From positions 62,001 through 126,000 of the IMG/VR virus record IMGVR_UViG_3300027777_000023: a stretch of DNA of 64,000 nt, one strand, 5' to 3'. The notes beneath the pieces are model-generated. The model searched no databases. It worked only from the letters and a program-made list of their open reading frames with translations, and was not told where the DNA came from. This document shows positions 23,329 through 42,740 of this stretch, one piece after another. How positions within the stretch are numbered: position 1 is the first letter of the stretch; every line of letters begins with the position of its first letter. Origin of the DNA: a virus. The translations under genes and the position numbers were made by a program.

Positions 23329-23404
23329 ACGAGTAAAAACTGTCAAGTCAGGTAATGTAACGATTCGTAAAACAGTAACGATAACAAAAACAGTCAAACG
23401 ATGA
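23309..23404 (+). CDS. Tiny basic protein
   Basis: 31 residues, almost entirely Lys/Arg/Thr/Val. It starts inside the previous gene and overlaps the DNA ligase start by ATGA, so it sits in a coupled chain. Function unknown; it could be a chance ORF. Confidence 0.4.
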   Translation: MKKTTSRRVKTVKSGNVTIRKTVTITKTVKR

Positions 23405-24528
23405 ACCTACCAAAACTATACAAGCGTACCGTAACAAGAGCCATCCAAGAATGGCAGATCTTTTTCGCAGATGGCGAATACTATACTGTCAGTGGTCAAA
23501 CAGACGGTAAGAAAGTAACTAGCACCCCTACAGTCTGCAAAGGCAAGAACCTAGGCAAAAAGAACGAGACCACTAATGAGGAGCAGGCTGAGCTAGAGGC
23601 AAAGGCTAAGTGGCAGAAGAAAAAGGATGAAGGGTATATCGAAAACATCGAGGCCGTTGATGGTGCGATGGATTTTCGATTTAATCCCATGCTGGCAAAA
23701 GACTATGCAAACTACGAGGACAAGATCGCTTTTCCTGTATATAGTCAGCCTAAATTGGATGGTCTCAGATGCGTGATTACTAGGGAAGGCACGTTCAGCC
23801 GGCAGTGGAAGCCTTTCGTCACATTAGATTATGTGCAAGATGTCTTGCGAGCTGTGTTTGATCAAAACCCAGGATTGCTTGCATTTGACGGTGAGATGTA
23901 TTCTCACGAGCTCAAAGATCGCTTTGAGGAAATTGTGAGTATTGTAAAGCAGCCAAAGGCTACAGCTGAAGATCTGGAAAAGTGTAAAAACAATATTCAG
24001 TATCATGTGTACGACGCTGTGTTTGAGGAAGCCCATAGCTTTAGTGCGCGTATAAACGCAGTAACTATGCTACTGCGTGAATTGGACAGCCCATATATCA
24101 AGCTTGTGGAAACAGACCGCATCCGAAATCAAGACGATCTTGATGCGATGTATCAGCAGTATATGCAAGAAGGCTATGAGGGTCAAATGATTCGCACACC
24201 TCTGTCATTGTATCAGCATAATCGAACCAAAGATCTATTAAAGCGTAAGGATTTCCACGACGCTGAGTACGAGATCATAGGCTATAAAGAAGGCAAAGGC
24301 AGTCGTGAAGGCTGTATTATATTGCGGCTCGGTATGGCTGACGGCACTGAATTTGATTCTGTGCCTGTTGGCGGTGTAGAATATCTGCAAAGATTGTGGC
24401 TTCGTCGAGAAGACCTGCTGGGCTTGCGGGCAACTGTCAAGTACCAGAACCTCAGCAATGACGGCATTCCAAGGTTCAACAACACAGTAAAGATCAGAAA
24501 CCATAAACTAGAGGAAATGGTATTCTAA
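23401..24528 (+). CDS. ATP-dependent DNA ligase
   Basis: 375 residues. An N-terminal WGR-like region (GKNLGKKNETTNEEQAELEA), common in phage ligases, precedes the catalytic core. Motif I is SQPKLDGLRC with the adenylated lysine, then FDGEMYSH, EGYEGQMIRTP for motif IV, and LLKRKDF for motif V; an OB-like domain ends the protein. It would join nicks during phage replication and repair. It is coupled to the tiny gene upstream and overlaps the next ATG by one base. Confidence 0.92.
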   Translation: MNLPKLYKRTVTRAIQEWQIFFADGEYYTVSGQTDGKKVTSTPTVCKGKNLGKKNETTNEEQAELEAKAKWQKKKDEGYIENIEAVDGAMDFRFNPMLAKDYANYEDKIAFPVYSQPKLDGLRCVITREGTFSRQWKPFVTLDYVQDVLRAVFDQNPGLLAFDGEMYSHELKDRFEEIVSIVKQPKATAEDLEKCKNNIQYHVYDAVFEEAHSFSARINAVTMLLRELDSPYIKLVETDRIRNQDDLDAMYQQYMQEGYEGQMIRTPLSLYQHNRTKDLLKRKDFHDAEYEIIGYKEGKGSREGCIILRLGMADGTEFDSVPVGGVEYLQRLWLRREDLLGLRATVKYQNLSNDGIPRFNNTVKIRNHKLEEMVF

Positions 24529-24803
24529 TGAAAACATTAAGAGACAAGATAGATGACTGGGTAGATGAATTCTATCCAGATAACACTATATTAATTGCTG
24601 ACGGATTCGAAGAAGCTTTCGTGGGCGTAGCTGTCCAATTCAATACGCCAATAGCAATATTTGACAGACAAAAGTGTATCAAAATACTTATGCAAGATAT
24701 GAGTGAAGATGAAGCGTATGAGTATTTTGAGTTCAACGTTAGTGGAGCATATGTTGGTGAAAACACACCAGCATTCATAGAGTTCTTTCCCAATGAATCT
24801 TAG
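24528..24803 (+). CDS. Conserved phage-type hypothetical protein
   Basis: 91 residues. The block AIFDRQKCIKILMQDMSEDEA followed by YFEFNVSGAYVGENTPAF is typical of a small protein family found in many phages. No function known to me. Confidence 0.65.
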   Translation: MKTLRDKIDDWVDEFYPDNTILIADGFEEAFVGVAVQFNTPIAIFDRQKCIKILMQDMSEDEAYEYFEFNVSGAYVGENTPAFIEFFPNES

Positions 24804-25050
24804 AATATTCTTCGTCATAGCCGAATACTCTGATAAGGTGTTCGGTGTCGTAGCTCAAAACAACACATTGCTATATTCAAAGCAGGTGCATGATCGCTAC
24901 GACTTTGCTGACGGCATCAAAGCTGTAAGATCCGTAGAGTCTGAGGAGAGTATTATACATCAAGCGTTCTGCAAAAAATATCCAGAACTAGCTAGTCAAC
25001 TGATTGATAAGCATCCAGAAATAGCAAAAACCAAACAAACAAACCAATAA
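24793..25050 (+). CDS. Small hypothetical protein
   Basis: 85 residues overlapping its upstream neighbour by 11 bases. Alpha/beta composition. Not recognised. Confidence 0.55.
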   Translation: MNLRIFFVIAEYSDKVFGVVAQNNTLLYSKQVHDRYDFADGIKAVRSVESEESIIHQAFCKKYPELASQLIDKHPEIAKTKQTNQ

Positions 25051-25054
25051 AACT

Positions 25055-25366
25055 ATGAAAAAAGTTACACTTGAGCAAGCGCACGAATTACTAGAAAATA
25101 CTTCCGCAGTTATCTGGGGAGAAGAAGGCAACCTATCATATCCTCTTGTCAATGATCTTGAAGGAGACGAAGATAATTGCTTTTTTGAATTAATCCTGGA
25201 CGATGAAGAGATGCGGTTTAATGAAGGAGATAATCAAACAGTCGTACTAGACGGATTTAGTATGGTACTTGTTGATGAGTATGGTGAAAATCAGTCAATC
25301 ACTTTGCTTGTACCTATGGACGTAGAAGATCCTTTTGTAGAAAAATTGAATGACGAAGAAGAATAA
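25055..25366 (+). CDS. Acidic hypothetical protein
   Basis: 103 residues with a strongly acidic composition and acidic tail (EKLNDEEE). Highly acidic small phage proteins can be DNA mimics, but nothing specific supports that here. Followed by about 80 bases of AT-rich sequence before the kinase gene. Confidence 0.6.
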   Translation: MKKVTLEQAHELLENTSAVIWGEEGNLSYPLVNDLEGDEDNCFFELILDDEEMRFNEGDNQTVVLDGFSMVLVDEYGENQSITLLVPMDVEDPFVEKLNDEEE

Positions 25367-25445
25367 TCTTAAAGTGTCAGTATGATTTTGTTAAGGTTTT
25401 AAAAAAATACGAAGAAAAATTTCTAAAATATAGAAAGGAGTGACC

Positions 25446-26339
25446 ATGAAAAAGAATCAAATTAAAGAGCCCAATACAAATAATAAAATTATTGTTTGTC
25501 GCGGGCTCCCGTGACCGGCTAGCGGAAAATCGACATGGGCCAAAGACTTTATTGACCGTAATCCTGGGTGGTTGCGAGTCAACAAAGACGATCTCAGGGC
25601 AATGCTTCACAACAGTAAGTGGAGCAAAGATAATGAAAAGCAGGTATTGCTTGTGCGTGACAGCATGATTATCGGAGCATTGAGTAGAGGGTATGGTGTG
25701 ATTGTTGATGATACGAATTTCGCTAGTCAGCACATCACAAATATTCAACTTATTGCTGAGGATTATAAAGCAGACTTTGAGGTAAAAGACTTTGATGTCT
25801 CGCTTGAAGAATGCTTGAAGCGTAATAGTGAGCGAATGCCTAGGGTCCCGGATCGAGTGATCCTAGATATGTATAATAAATATGTGTTGCCTAACAAACC
25901 TAAAGTCAAAAATAATAAAGATCTACCACCGTGTATTGTATGTGATCTTGACGGCACGCTCGCAATTCATGTAGATCGTGGTCCGTTCGAGTTTGAGAAA
26001 TGCTACTCTGACGAGGTAAATGAGAGTGTGCTGGGCTGTATAGACGCAATGACTAAACGAGGATTCAAGCTAATCTTCGTTAGTGGACGTCCAGATAGCT
26101 GTCGAGACGAGACAGTGCGTTGGTTGAATGATAAGTGTTGGCTCGGTTCTGGATACATATTGTACATGCGAGCTACAGGCGACAACAGAAAAGATAGCAT
26201 AGTGAAGGAGGAGATTTATAAAAATGATATTCTTCCTGAATACTATGTAGAGTTTGTGCTAGACGACAGGCAACAGGTCGTCGATGCATTGCGGGAAATG
26301 GGATTACAAGTATGGCAAGTTGCACGCGGAGATTTTTAA
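25446..26339 (+). CDS. pseT: T4-type polynucleotide kinase/3'-phosphatase with in-frame TGA in the P-loop
   Basis: Apart from one stop codon this is a full-length T4 Pnkp-like enzyme (298 codons; T4 Pnkp has 301 residues). The kinase domain runs from IIVCRGLP to SERMPRVPD. The HAD phosphatase has DLDGTLA and FVSGRPD, and the end (DDRQQVV, then WQVARGDF) closely matches T4. The TGA at 25512-25514 interrupts the Walker A motif: GLP, stop, Pro, ASGKST. Skipping TGACCG would restore G-x4-GKST exactly, and the codon before the stop and the codon after it are both CCG, as in translational hopping. Otherwise the first possible restart in frame is TTG at 25572, which would lack the P-loop. A strong ribosome site (AAAGGAG, five bases before ATG) is unusual in this window. 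Enzyme role: heal 5'-OH and 2',3'-cyclic phosphate ends for the RNA ligases. Confidence 0.85.
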
Positions 26340-26668: not shown

Positions 26669-26683
26669 ACCAACAACAACCCT

Positions 26684-27772
26684 ATGAAACAATTCATGTA
26701 CTTACTCGACAATGGTTTCGTCGTGAGGGAAAGAGAGATAGGTGGTGAGATGTGCTATCTTGTATTTCCATCTTCTTTGGGTGTTAAATGGACCAAGAAT
26801 AATTTGATATACAGAAGCAGTATCTGGACCGCAGATATGAAACCTGTGTCGCTGGGGTTCAAGAAATTCTTTAATTTTGGGGAAGCGCCTGAACTTGTGA
26901 GAGACCCTCGAAGCAGCGATATCTTGCTTGGTGGATCTGTGGTAGAAAAGATCGACGGTTCTTGTCTCATTGTGAGTAGGTTTAAGGGGCAGTTAATCTG
27001 TAGGACCAGAGGCACCTTTGATGCTAGGGAAAAACCTACAGGAAATGAGTTAGACTATCTGGAAAAGAAATATCCAAAAGCTTTCCAAAACGATGACCTG
27101 GCGAGTGAGCAATGCAGTTACGTATACGAGTGGACGACTAGTGCAAATCGTATTGTTGTGGATTATGGAGAGGAGCCAAACATACGATTAATTGCTAGAA
27201 TCTCCCATGAAGACTATCGCTACTCTTATCAGACCGTCCTGGATGGGATAGCTCAGGATATTGCTGTAAGTAGGCCGTACAGGTTGCTCGCTCCTGGTGT
27301 GAGTATGATAAAGACTCAACTAGAAAAGATGCGTCTCAGTGAAGGATACTGTGTGTACTTCAACGATGATCAGGACATCAAGAAAATGAAATGCGACTGG
27401 TATCTGAAAGCTCACAGATTCAGGAGCAACTGTTCATTACCATACATACTAGATTTATTTCTAGAGCAAGATTGTCCAGATATAACCTCATTTGTCGAAG
27501 CGCTTGAAAAAGAGTATGACTTTGAATGCGCTCCTGAAGTCAGGTCGTACGCATCGTCGGTATGTAGAGCCTATGCAGATGTGCAGGTACTCATACTCAG
27601 AGTCAAAGACTTCACAGGCACACTAGACGGCAAAAACAACAGAAAAGCTGCAGCAGAGGCTATATTAGCAGAATACAAGGACTCAGGATTGACAGGGGTA
27701 GCGTTTAATTGCTTGGACGGAAGACAAACAACAAAACATCAACTCAAACAATTGATACTTCAACAACTATGA
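26684..27772 (+). CDS. RNA ligase, T4 Rnl1 type
   Basis: 362 residues (T4 Rnl1 has 374). KKFFNFGE precedes motif I VEKIDGSCLIVS with the nucleotide-accepting lysine. Then come CRTRGTFDA, YVYEWTTSANRIVVDY, the motif IV block EGYCVYF and motif V KCDWYLKAH. Rnl1 enzymes reseal tRNA cut in the anticodon loop, acting after polynucleotide kinase/phosphatase, whose gene lies 0.3 kb upstream. I chose the ATG at 26684; earlier in-frame starts lie before or inside the leader hairpin. Confidence 0.9.
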   Translation: MKQFMYLLDNGFVVREREIGGEMCYLVFPSSLGVKWTKNNLIYRSSIWTADMKPVSLGFKKFFNFGEAPELVRDPRSSDILLGGSVVEKIDGSCLIVSRFKGQLICRTRGTFDAREKPTGNELDYLEKKYPKAFQNDDLASEQCSYVYEWTTSANRIVVDYGEEPNIRLIARISHEDYRYSYQTVLDGIAQDIAVSRPYRLLAPGVSMIKTQLEKMRLSEGYCVYFNDDQDIKKMKCDWYLKAHRFRSNCSLPYILDLFLEQDCPDITSFVEALEKEYDFECAPEVRSYASSVCRAYADVQVLILRVKDFTGTLDGKNNRKAAAEAILAEYKDSGLTGVAFNCLDGRQTTKHQLKQLILQQL

Positions 27773-31875: not shown

Positions 31876-32232
31876 TTACATTTGATCAAGCTGTGCCTGC
31901 ACTTTTTGAATTCGTTCTAATAGCAGATTTATAGTTTGCTCAGAACGTTTATCTATAGCCAAATCTTCTTCAAGACGCGCACTATCTTTTATCTGCTGGC
32001 GGTTGGCTGCCATAAGAATGAATGGAGCCTGAAGAGCGGCCACACAAGAAAGAACAAGATTAAGTAGGATATATGGATATGGGTCTACAGGAGCAAGCAA
32101 ACCCCAAGTATTAACAGCAATCCAAACAACTATAATAGAAACACACACAATGATAGCCCACCAACTACCACCAAATTTAGCTATGCGATCAGCTAGCTTG
32201 TCTCCGAATGATAGGTTTTCGTCAGGACTCAT
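31876..32232 (-). CDS. DUF1003 family membrane protein
   Basis: 118 residues from the ATG at 32232. LSFGDKLADRIAKFGGSWW, YPYILLNLVLSCVAALQAPF and LMAANRQQIKD are the DUF1003 signature, with two membrane helices and a C-terminal coiled coil. The function of the family is unknown. An upstream in-frame start at 32289 would overlap the next gene. Confidence 0.85.
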   Translation of the reverse strand: MSPDENLSFGDKLADRIAKFGGSWWAIIVCVSIIVVWIAVNTWGLLAPVDPYPYILLNLVLSCVAALQAPFILMAANRQQIKDSARLEEDLAIDKRSEQTINLLLERIQKVQAQLDQM

Positions 32233-32236
32233 AAAA

Positions 32237-32782
32237 TTATTTGGTTGGAAAAGATTTCGCCGGTTCGTATCGTTGTTGCTGTTTATCAATATACATAAGA
32301 ACTCTATTCAAATCATCCCGCAGAGCATCTTGTTTACTATGCATTGCACTCACAAACCAGATGGCTCCCATAAGCTGAATAAAGATAGCCAAGGCAGTGC
32401 TTGTAAACAATCTTGTGAATAGCTGCTTCGTTGAGTTGTAACTATGCGCTGCTTGTCTTAAAAAGTCTAGATCTCTTGATATTGCCGAGAAATCTGCCTT
32501 TACAGCCTCTATCGTACCCCGCAACCCATTTCTACCGTCAACCCCAATACTGATATGCATTGCGTCTGTCACCTTTTCACGAGTTTCTTTAACAACACGG
32601 TCTAGTGCCTCATGCTGGGTTTTCCCTACCTCCACTATAGAGTCCATTCTCAATTTAAGATTAGTTAATTCTAAATCTAAAAGCCTTTTATACATATCTA
32701 AGTCAGCTTTTAAACAAATTAATTTGTGCTGCTCAGATATATTAGAATCTTCCGGGCTTGTTAAATTGTCGTCTTCCAACAT
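32237..32782 (-). CDS. Coiled-coil membrane protein
   Basis: 181 residues: a long charged helix region, then one membrane helix near residue 130 (LAIFIQLMGAIWFVSAM) and a charged tail. Part of the minus-strand lysis/portal operon. Not recognised. Confidence 0.6.
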   Translation of the reverse strand: MLEDDNLTSPEDSNISEQHKLICLKADLDMYKRLLDLELTNLKLRMDSIVEVGKTQHEALDRVVKETREKVTDAMHISIGVDGRNGLRGTIEAVKADFSAISRDLDFLRQAAHSYNSTKQLFTRLFTSTALAIFIQLMGAIWFVSAMHSKQDALRDDLNRVLMYIDKQQQRYEPAKSFPTK

Positions 32783-41957: not shown

Positions 41958-42740
41958 ATGAGCAAAAAAGTGCTATCATCGATTAAGCCTGTTTGTCAGG
42001 TGACCTCCGGAGTCGAATCCGGAAAAGCAGTAGCAGTATCGGCCTTCAAAGCCGAAATGTTGGTGGCCTTGAAAAAGGTCACCAAGGTAGAGTGGGCGGG
42101 ACTCGCAGCTGGGGTCATGATGATGACGCTCATCGGGATGATGGGCTATGGGGCCGGAAAGGCCCTGGAAGAGCAGCAGAAGGCTCTCCAGAGCCTGTCA
42201 GTTAGGTTGGATGAGGCGGCTGATATAGGCGTCTCCCTGAAAGGGGAGATAGCCGCCCTGCGCCTCACGTTGGTGGCGGTGGAGACAGCTGAAGAGCTCC
42301 ACACCAGACGCGAAGAGCTCCAAACCAGACGCCTTGACGGGCTAAGTCTGATGGCAGGCGATGGGGCAAAGAAGGTCGCCGCCCTTGAAGGAGCGGTAGA
42401 CTCCAACGCCAAAAATACGGCGGTAGAGCTCGCAACCATTAGGAATGGAGTTGCGGGCGCAGCCGAAGTTGGGCGGGCAGGGCTTCTGGTAAGCAGTCAA
42501 ATGGGGTGCTTGATAGGTTCAAGCATGCTGGGCGAGAAGGTGCGGGAGGTGGCCAAGGCCATGGCTCCAATGGTGGAGCCTGTGTCTTGGTACAACCCGA
42601 CGGCGGAGGTGATAGCACCCACAGCACCCATAGCAGAGGTGCCAGCACCCATGCCAGCACCCATGGCAGAGGTGCCGCCACCTGAATCCTGGACAGCCAG
42701 GATGCGCAGTCGACTGGCGGCGACCCTTCTCGCCAAATGA
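41958..42740 (+). CDS. GC-rich membrane protein with coiled coil
   Basis: 260 residues. One membrane segment near residue 50 (WAGLAAGVMMMTLIGMMGYGAG) is followed by a long Ala/Glu-rich coiled coil and a Pro-rich C-terminus (PAPMPAPMAEVPPPE). One sampled 60-base line of the gene is 60 percent G+C, well above the replication genes, which suggests acquisition. It has its own promoter and double terminator. Function unknown. Confidence 0.6.
   Translation: MSKKVLSSIKPVCQVTSGVESGKAVAVSAFKAEMLVALKKVTKVEWAGLAAGVMMMTLIGMMGYGAGKALEEQQKALQSLSVRLDEAADIGVSLKGEIAALRLTLVAVETAEELHTRREELQTRRLDGLSLMAGDGAKKVAALEGAVDSNAKNTAVELATIRNGVAGAAEVGRAGLLVSSQMGCLIGSSMLGEKVREVAKAMAPMVEPVSWYNPTAEVIAPTAPIAEVPAPMPAPMAEVPPPESWTARMRSRLAATLLAK

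Follow-up and report, generated by a model that had tools for sequence, protein, structure and literature searches.

An in-frame TGA in the P-loop of a phage polynucleotide kinase gene, probably a recent loss-of-kinase allele with the geometry of a stop-hop

Passage of the ribosome over a stop codon between matched codons, or stop-hopping, has been described for synthetic constructs in E. coli (Weiss et al. 1987, cited in PMC5009743). These were designed reporters with a measured product, in which identical codons flank the stop, nine bases are spent on one residue, and the product differs by two residues from that of read-through. The 2016 review that describes them raises the possibility that in-frame stop hopping underlies some cases called read-through and states that "no occurences are known" (PMC5009743). 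In the bypass of T4 gene 60, where the gap is 50 nt, a 5′ stem-loop has been proposed as the motor (PMC5009743), and the mitochondria of Magnusiomyces capitatus carry bypassing elements, which are short inserts in otherwise intact genes, 81 of them in one genome according to the same source. Here we describe a gene related to T4 Pnkp (PseT; PDB 1ltq; phrog_505) that recalls each of these systems in part. It has the same two domains as T4 Pnkp over the full length (E 1.6e-44) and likewise stands beside genes for a DNA ligase and an Rnl1-type RNA ligase; unlike T4 Pnkp, its P-loop is broken by a TGA plus one extra proline codon.

The polynucleotide kinase (PNK) gene lies in a window of 64,000 nucleotides, bases 62001-126000 of the 189,602-base IMG/VR virus record IMGVR_UViG_3300027777_000023, which derives from a large uncultured phage. 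Its closest relatives, the IMG/VR contigs L002 and L003, share 96% protein identity with it and have the same gene order. The features of the gene and its neighbors are as follows.

23401..24528, plus strand: ATP-dependent DNA ligase gene, intact (phrog_114, PF01068)
25055..25366, plus strand: gene just upstream, with no assigned function; in L002/L003 the homologous gene overlaps the start of PNK
25446, plus strand: ATG start of the PNK gene, 5 nt after the Shine-Dalgarno-like GGAG at 25437-25440 (from the sequence)
25446..25511, plus strand: first 22 codons, MKKNQIKEPNTNNKIIVCRGLP, covering the first beta strand and the start of the P-loop (from the sequence and comparison with the P-loops of relatives)
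25509..25511, plus strand: CCG (Pro), putative take-off codon (from the sequence)
25512..25514, plus strand: in-frame TGA, opposite the P-loop Leu codon TTA of L002/L003 (sequence and alignment)
25515..25517, plus strand: CCG (Pro), putative landing codon, opposite the P-loop Pro codon CCC of L002/L003 (alignment)
25515..26339, plus strand: intact remainder of a T4-type polynucleotide kinase-phosphatase, 274 aa, beginning PASGKSTWAKDF (Pfam, phrog_505, 1ltq, dN/dS)
26681..27772, plus strand: T4 Rnl1-type RNA ligase gene, intact (PF09511, phrog_562)

The initial annotation had placed an in-frame TGA between CCG 25509 and CCG 25515, splitting the Walker A motif as GLP-stop-P-ASGKST in an otherwise full-length T4-type Pnkp; the coordinates, the frame with ATG 25446 and the split motif all hold. 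The layout at the P-loop is CCG TGA CCG, with identical codons on either side of the stop, and the frame after the TGA stays open for 274 codons until TAA 26337-26339. Directly after the stop, the kinase domain AAA_33 (PF13671) and the phosphatase domain HAD_PNKP (PF25109) both score above the Pfam cut-off in one chain, as in T4-type Pnkp. The phrog_505 match (1.9e-86) spans residues 1-274 of the post-stop part, and the alignment to T4 Pnkp 1ltq (1.6e-44) runs from PGSGKSTWAREF opposite PASGKSTWAKDF through to the last residue. Upstream of the stop, the 22-codon peptide is similar to N-terminal sequences of other phage PNKs, for example LCRGLPASGKSTWAK in L054/L056. In a six-frame search of the whole record, the AAA_33 profile reads through exactly one TGA, and a profile search of all 189.6 kb returned no second PNK. 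The gene is a T4-type Pnkp by descent whose coding sequence, as assembled, is interrupted. Between the DNA ligase gene and the gene just upstream of PNK, an 85-aa ORF (24793-25050) with no family match is missing from L002/L003, where the same two neighbors flank the position.

We compared the gene with its relatives, as the initial annotation had asked. The uninterrupted Walker A motif GxxxxGK[ST], absent here, appears as RGLPASGKST in L002/L003 and in L004 and L014-L017 (75-76% identity; L017 is the contig of L004), and further relatives extend down to about 36%. Besides the two 96% relatives, 18 further contigs have uninterrupted, insert-free P-loops, and neither the six-base insert nor a stop occurs in the P-loops of L012-L031 or of any standard-code relative examined. 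Intact P-loops with no trace of the insert had been named beforehand as half of what would overturn a bypass, and this half is what the alignment gave. Scans of IMG/VR, which may leave out records of this genome or near-identical ones, gave no match to GxP-xx-ASGK[ST]TWA with any six bases or to a P-loop with TGA-CCN, and found the uninserted CRGLPASGK[ST]TWA in seven contigs. No copy of the gene was found in bacterial or archaeal genome contigs. Elsewhere among the relatives, the L006/L029 PNK (about 1495-1520 in L029) reads GLPASSKTT, with Ser in place of the usually invariant Gly of GK[ST].

A phage PNK frame with many TGAs at glycine positions, including the P-loop glycine, occurs at 2896-3750 of L008, a 6.7-kb piece with 63 in-frame TGAs. 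There, TGA fits Gly well in PNK, and L008 probably uses it as glycine (the code 25 of Gracilibacteria and Absconditabacteria). Because its long frames are open only with TGA as sense, L008 represents a recoded phage and offers no parallel to the stop in the window. For the window's phage, an alternative code was rejected: this gene has a single TGA, and since TGA closes 11 of 97 long ORFs, the code is standard. A codon-bias scan for genes cut by one in-frame stop returned eight candidates including PNK; several of the other seven look like same-frame neighboring genes or antisense frames, and we saw no second clear case in this phage, one interruption against the 81 of M. capitatus.

Downstream of the stop, the gene shows strong purifying selection. 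Against L003, the post-stop part has dN 0.021 and dS 0.51 (dN/dS 0.04), and on the window's own branch, polarized with four outgroups, 4 amino acid changes, all conservative, stand against at least 14 silent ones. This comparison gives no sign of decay in the downstream ORF, which leaves two possibilities, a recent stop or a protein that continues to be produced.

The 5′ end of the gene differs from that of its relatives well beyond six bases. In L002/L003, the PNK start spans the stop codon of the upstream gene (...GAATAAACTTAAAGTGTTGGTGTTACGTGGGTTACCCGCCAGCGG); at that place the window retains GAATAATCTTAAAGTGTCAGTAT. Two features mark the region.

25367..25385, plus strand: what looks like a relic of the ancestral PNK start (CTTAAAGTGT), immediately following the upstream gene
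25386..25510, plus strand: 5′ segment without counterpart in L002/L003, comprising a new leader, a ribosome-binding site, the start codon and the codons next to it

The apparent relic shares a 10-nt exact run and 16 of 24 identities with L003, a match reached by 2 to 3 in 100,000 shuffles, which suggests that it is what remains of the old start. About 125 nt after it are unmatched in L003, by both an alignment gap and a blastn break at 25511, where homology resumes with GTGACCGGCTAGCGG opposite GTTACCCGCCAGCGG; window TGA CCG GCT then stands opposite TTA CCC GCC, the Leu-Pro-Ala of the L002/L003 P-loop. The difference from the closest relatives is thus more than the six-base insert noted initially and takes in the whole 5′ end. 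PNK appears to have gained a new 5′ end that brings a ribosome-binding site of its own and encodes a sensible PNK N-terminus (KIIVCRGLP). The record holds no other copy, repeat or mobile, of the segment, and no donor was found by DNA comparison with phage records, by near-exact string or by a degenerate KIIVCRGLP pattern. Synonymous divergence from L003 is saturated in the first 25 post-stop codons and then drops, to 0.88 for the remaining kinase codons and to 0.23 for the phosphatase, so that the gene is a mosaic. As the divergence is still high past the loop, the joint may not sit exactly at the stop.

Just before the stop, the RNA is predicted to fold into a hairpin whose end directly abuts CCG 25509.

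25467..25508, plus strand: RNA hairpin of a 6-bp GAGCCC/GGGCTC stem, a 3x3 internal loop and a 10-bp inner stem (folding)

The pairing of GAGCCC 25467-25472 with GGGCTC 25503-25508, proposed initially, is borne out by folding. The inner hairpin is also real, but the 16-bp minimum-energy fold differs somewhat inside from the AATAAT-AAA-ATTATT that had been drawn. Bases 25446-25511 fold at -19.5 kcal/mol, compared with -6.5 ± 3.0 for synonymous recodings, none of 2000 being as stable; the fold therefore exceeds what encoding the peptide demands and is more than chance. Among the 26,147 42-nt stretches of the genome whose GC is similar or lower, 15 give equally stable folds, many of them terminator-like, and no known RNA family was found at the site. 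In a rough calculation with 12-14 nt hidden behind the P codon, the hairpin, at 0 to -1.3 kcal/mol beforehand, would reach -6.7 kcal/mol after a six-base forward move, a gain of about 5-7 kcal/mol that any hairpin placed there would give.

Set beside T4 gene 60, the locus has the matched codons and, as a predicted fold at 25467-25508, a 5′ stem-loop upstream of take-off, so the likeness drawn in the initial annotation stands for these two elements. It does not extend to the others: the gap here is 6 nt rather than 50; the same folding gives gene 60 a long UUCG-capped take-off stem, whereas the stop here is held only by a weak 3-bp CCG-UGAC-CGG hairpin; gene 60 uses a KKYK-type nascent signal about 30 residues back, which is impossible with a chain of only 22 residues at the stop; and the CCG TGA CCG layout, by contrast with the gene 60 bypass, is not conserved in relatives.

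We weighed several explanations for the interruption. A programmed or tolerated stop-hop is unlikely, if worth serious thought. While CCG 25509 occupies the P site and UGA the A site, slow termination would allow the peptidyl-tRNA-Pro to detach, refolding of the upstream hairpin would pull the mRNA back, and the tRNA would re-pair at CCG 25515, yielding GLPASGKST with no extra residue. The exact matched-codon layout, 9 nt for one residue, is that of the synthetic constructs (PMC5009743), and, as noted at the outset of this work, a six-base skip restores the Walker A spacing G-x4-GKST, which no other hop does, whereas plain read-through adds two residues. The hairpin, more stable than every synonymous recoding, and its energy gain, which resembles the gene 60 5′ stem-loop "motor" (PMC5009743), agree with such a hop, as do the purifying selection downstream, the slowing of release by Pro before a stop in E. 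coli (PMC7246954) and the poor termination at UGA in E. coli K-12 (PMC5373646). Against these stand the confinement of the layout to one genome, a chain too short for a gene-60-like nascent-peptide signal, the weak hairpin around the stop and a motor result that would be the same for any hairpin at that position. The codon coincidence is also weaker than it looks, because CCG makes up 309 of 2,225 proline codons (14%) in the long ORFs of the genome, which is the chance of a match once a second Pro is present, and identical codons flank the stop at 2 of 223 ordinary ORF ends. The bypass first proposed thus keeps its geometry and hairpin and lacks any relative with a stop or insert; that a natural in-frame stop-hop, aided by slow post-Pro release and the hairpin, keeps the phage's only PNK in service is a little more doubtful still.

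The stop could instead have arisen as an artefact in assembly or sequencing, or belong to a minority variant, the true majority having an uninterrupted P-loop. The record comes from a public metagenomic collection and its relatives are intact, but a clean six-base in-frame difference would be atypical of short-read or homopolymer error, the remainder of the gene and its neighbors are intact, and the 5′ rearrangement, which yields a sensible PNK N-terminus, is much larger than six bases; together these points make an artefact or minority variant improbable in our view. Ordinary UGA read-through by a near-cognate Trp tRNA or a suppressor would give GLPxPASGKST. It would draw on UGA, the stop codon past which translation is most frequent in E. 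coli K-12 (PMC5373646), and bacterial genes that combine an in-frame stop with a low dN/dS have been described (PMC7918605). We nevertheless consider it very unlikely, given two added residues in a Walker A loop whose spacing the relatives keep, no suppressor tRNA found in the record and the use of TGA as a regular terminator in a standard code. Least credible is a gene split by design, in which a 22-codon leader precedes a phosphatase-only protein started at TTG 25572 or ATG 25602: the phosphatase domain has diverged less than any other part and is intact, but neither start has a convincing Shine-Dalgarno sequence and the kinase residues between the stop and these starts are still conserved.

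The gene is probably an allele of an ordinary T4-type PNK in which the kinase was inactivated recently, through rearrangement of the gene's 5′ end. The stop, the intact remainder, the intact relatives and the different 5′ end are observed, and from them we infer how recombination proceeded, in what order the events came and that function was lost. Recombination with another PNK gene would have rearranged the 5′ end, with Leu-Pro (two codons, six bases) duplicated or inserted at or near the P-loop joint. CTC CCG would come from the new 5′ end, followed by a Leu-Pro pair in which TGA has taken the place of the Leu codon: with TGA CCG opposite the relatives' Leu-Pro, the "insert" looks like a Leu-Pro duplication at the joint or a small insertion, and with TGA CCG GCT opposite TTA CCC GCC, one substitution in a duplicated Leu codon yields TGA. 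If the joint were out of step by two codons, Leu-Pro-Leu-Pro would result, and a single base change in the second Leu codon would create the stop. This accounts at once for the length of six bases, for the presence of a second Pro codon and for the stop, and the duplicated Pro codon needs no selection for bypass. Alternatively, TGACCG (or CCGTGA) may have been plainly inserted within the recombined tract. Translation from ATG 25446 would normally stop after 22 residues, leaving little or no active 5′-kinase; whatever product is made would be due to rare recoding, or to weak internal starts that retain only the phosphatase domain.

The intact close relatives, the absence of matches in the insert scans, the homology break at 25385-25511, the old-start relic, the dS mosaic against L003 and the lack of a suppressor tRNA in the record all point toward an inactivated allele. 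Counted against it are the undecayed downstream ORF, the position of this PNK as the only one in the record and the hairpin beside the stop, which loss of function leaves unexplained. If the gene is simply broken, it would be a naturally inactivated accessory phage gene caught early, with its mutational history still readable. If the ribosome does hop, this would be the first natural stop-hop, known only from synthetic constructs as of the 2016 review (PMC5009743), and a third interpretation, next to pseudogene and read-through, would have to be considered whenever a bacterial or phage gene has an in-frame stop.

Other RNA genes of the phage were also recorded. On the minus strand of the window, ARAGORN predicts a tRNA-Gly (gcc) at 42627-42702 that, unlike the Thr and Arg tRNAs, falls under the Rfam tRNA gathering score. 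Outside the window, a full-length tmRNA gene (Rfam 156 bits) lies on the plus strand at 11899-12312 of L047, record bases 31899-32312. ARAGORN gives its tag as an unusually long 31 aa, VNNIDFAPSVEEADAVLATFGYADADAILAA, and a group I intron match at L047 12329-12538 begins 16 bases after the tmRNA gene.
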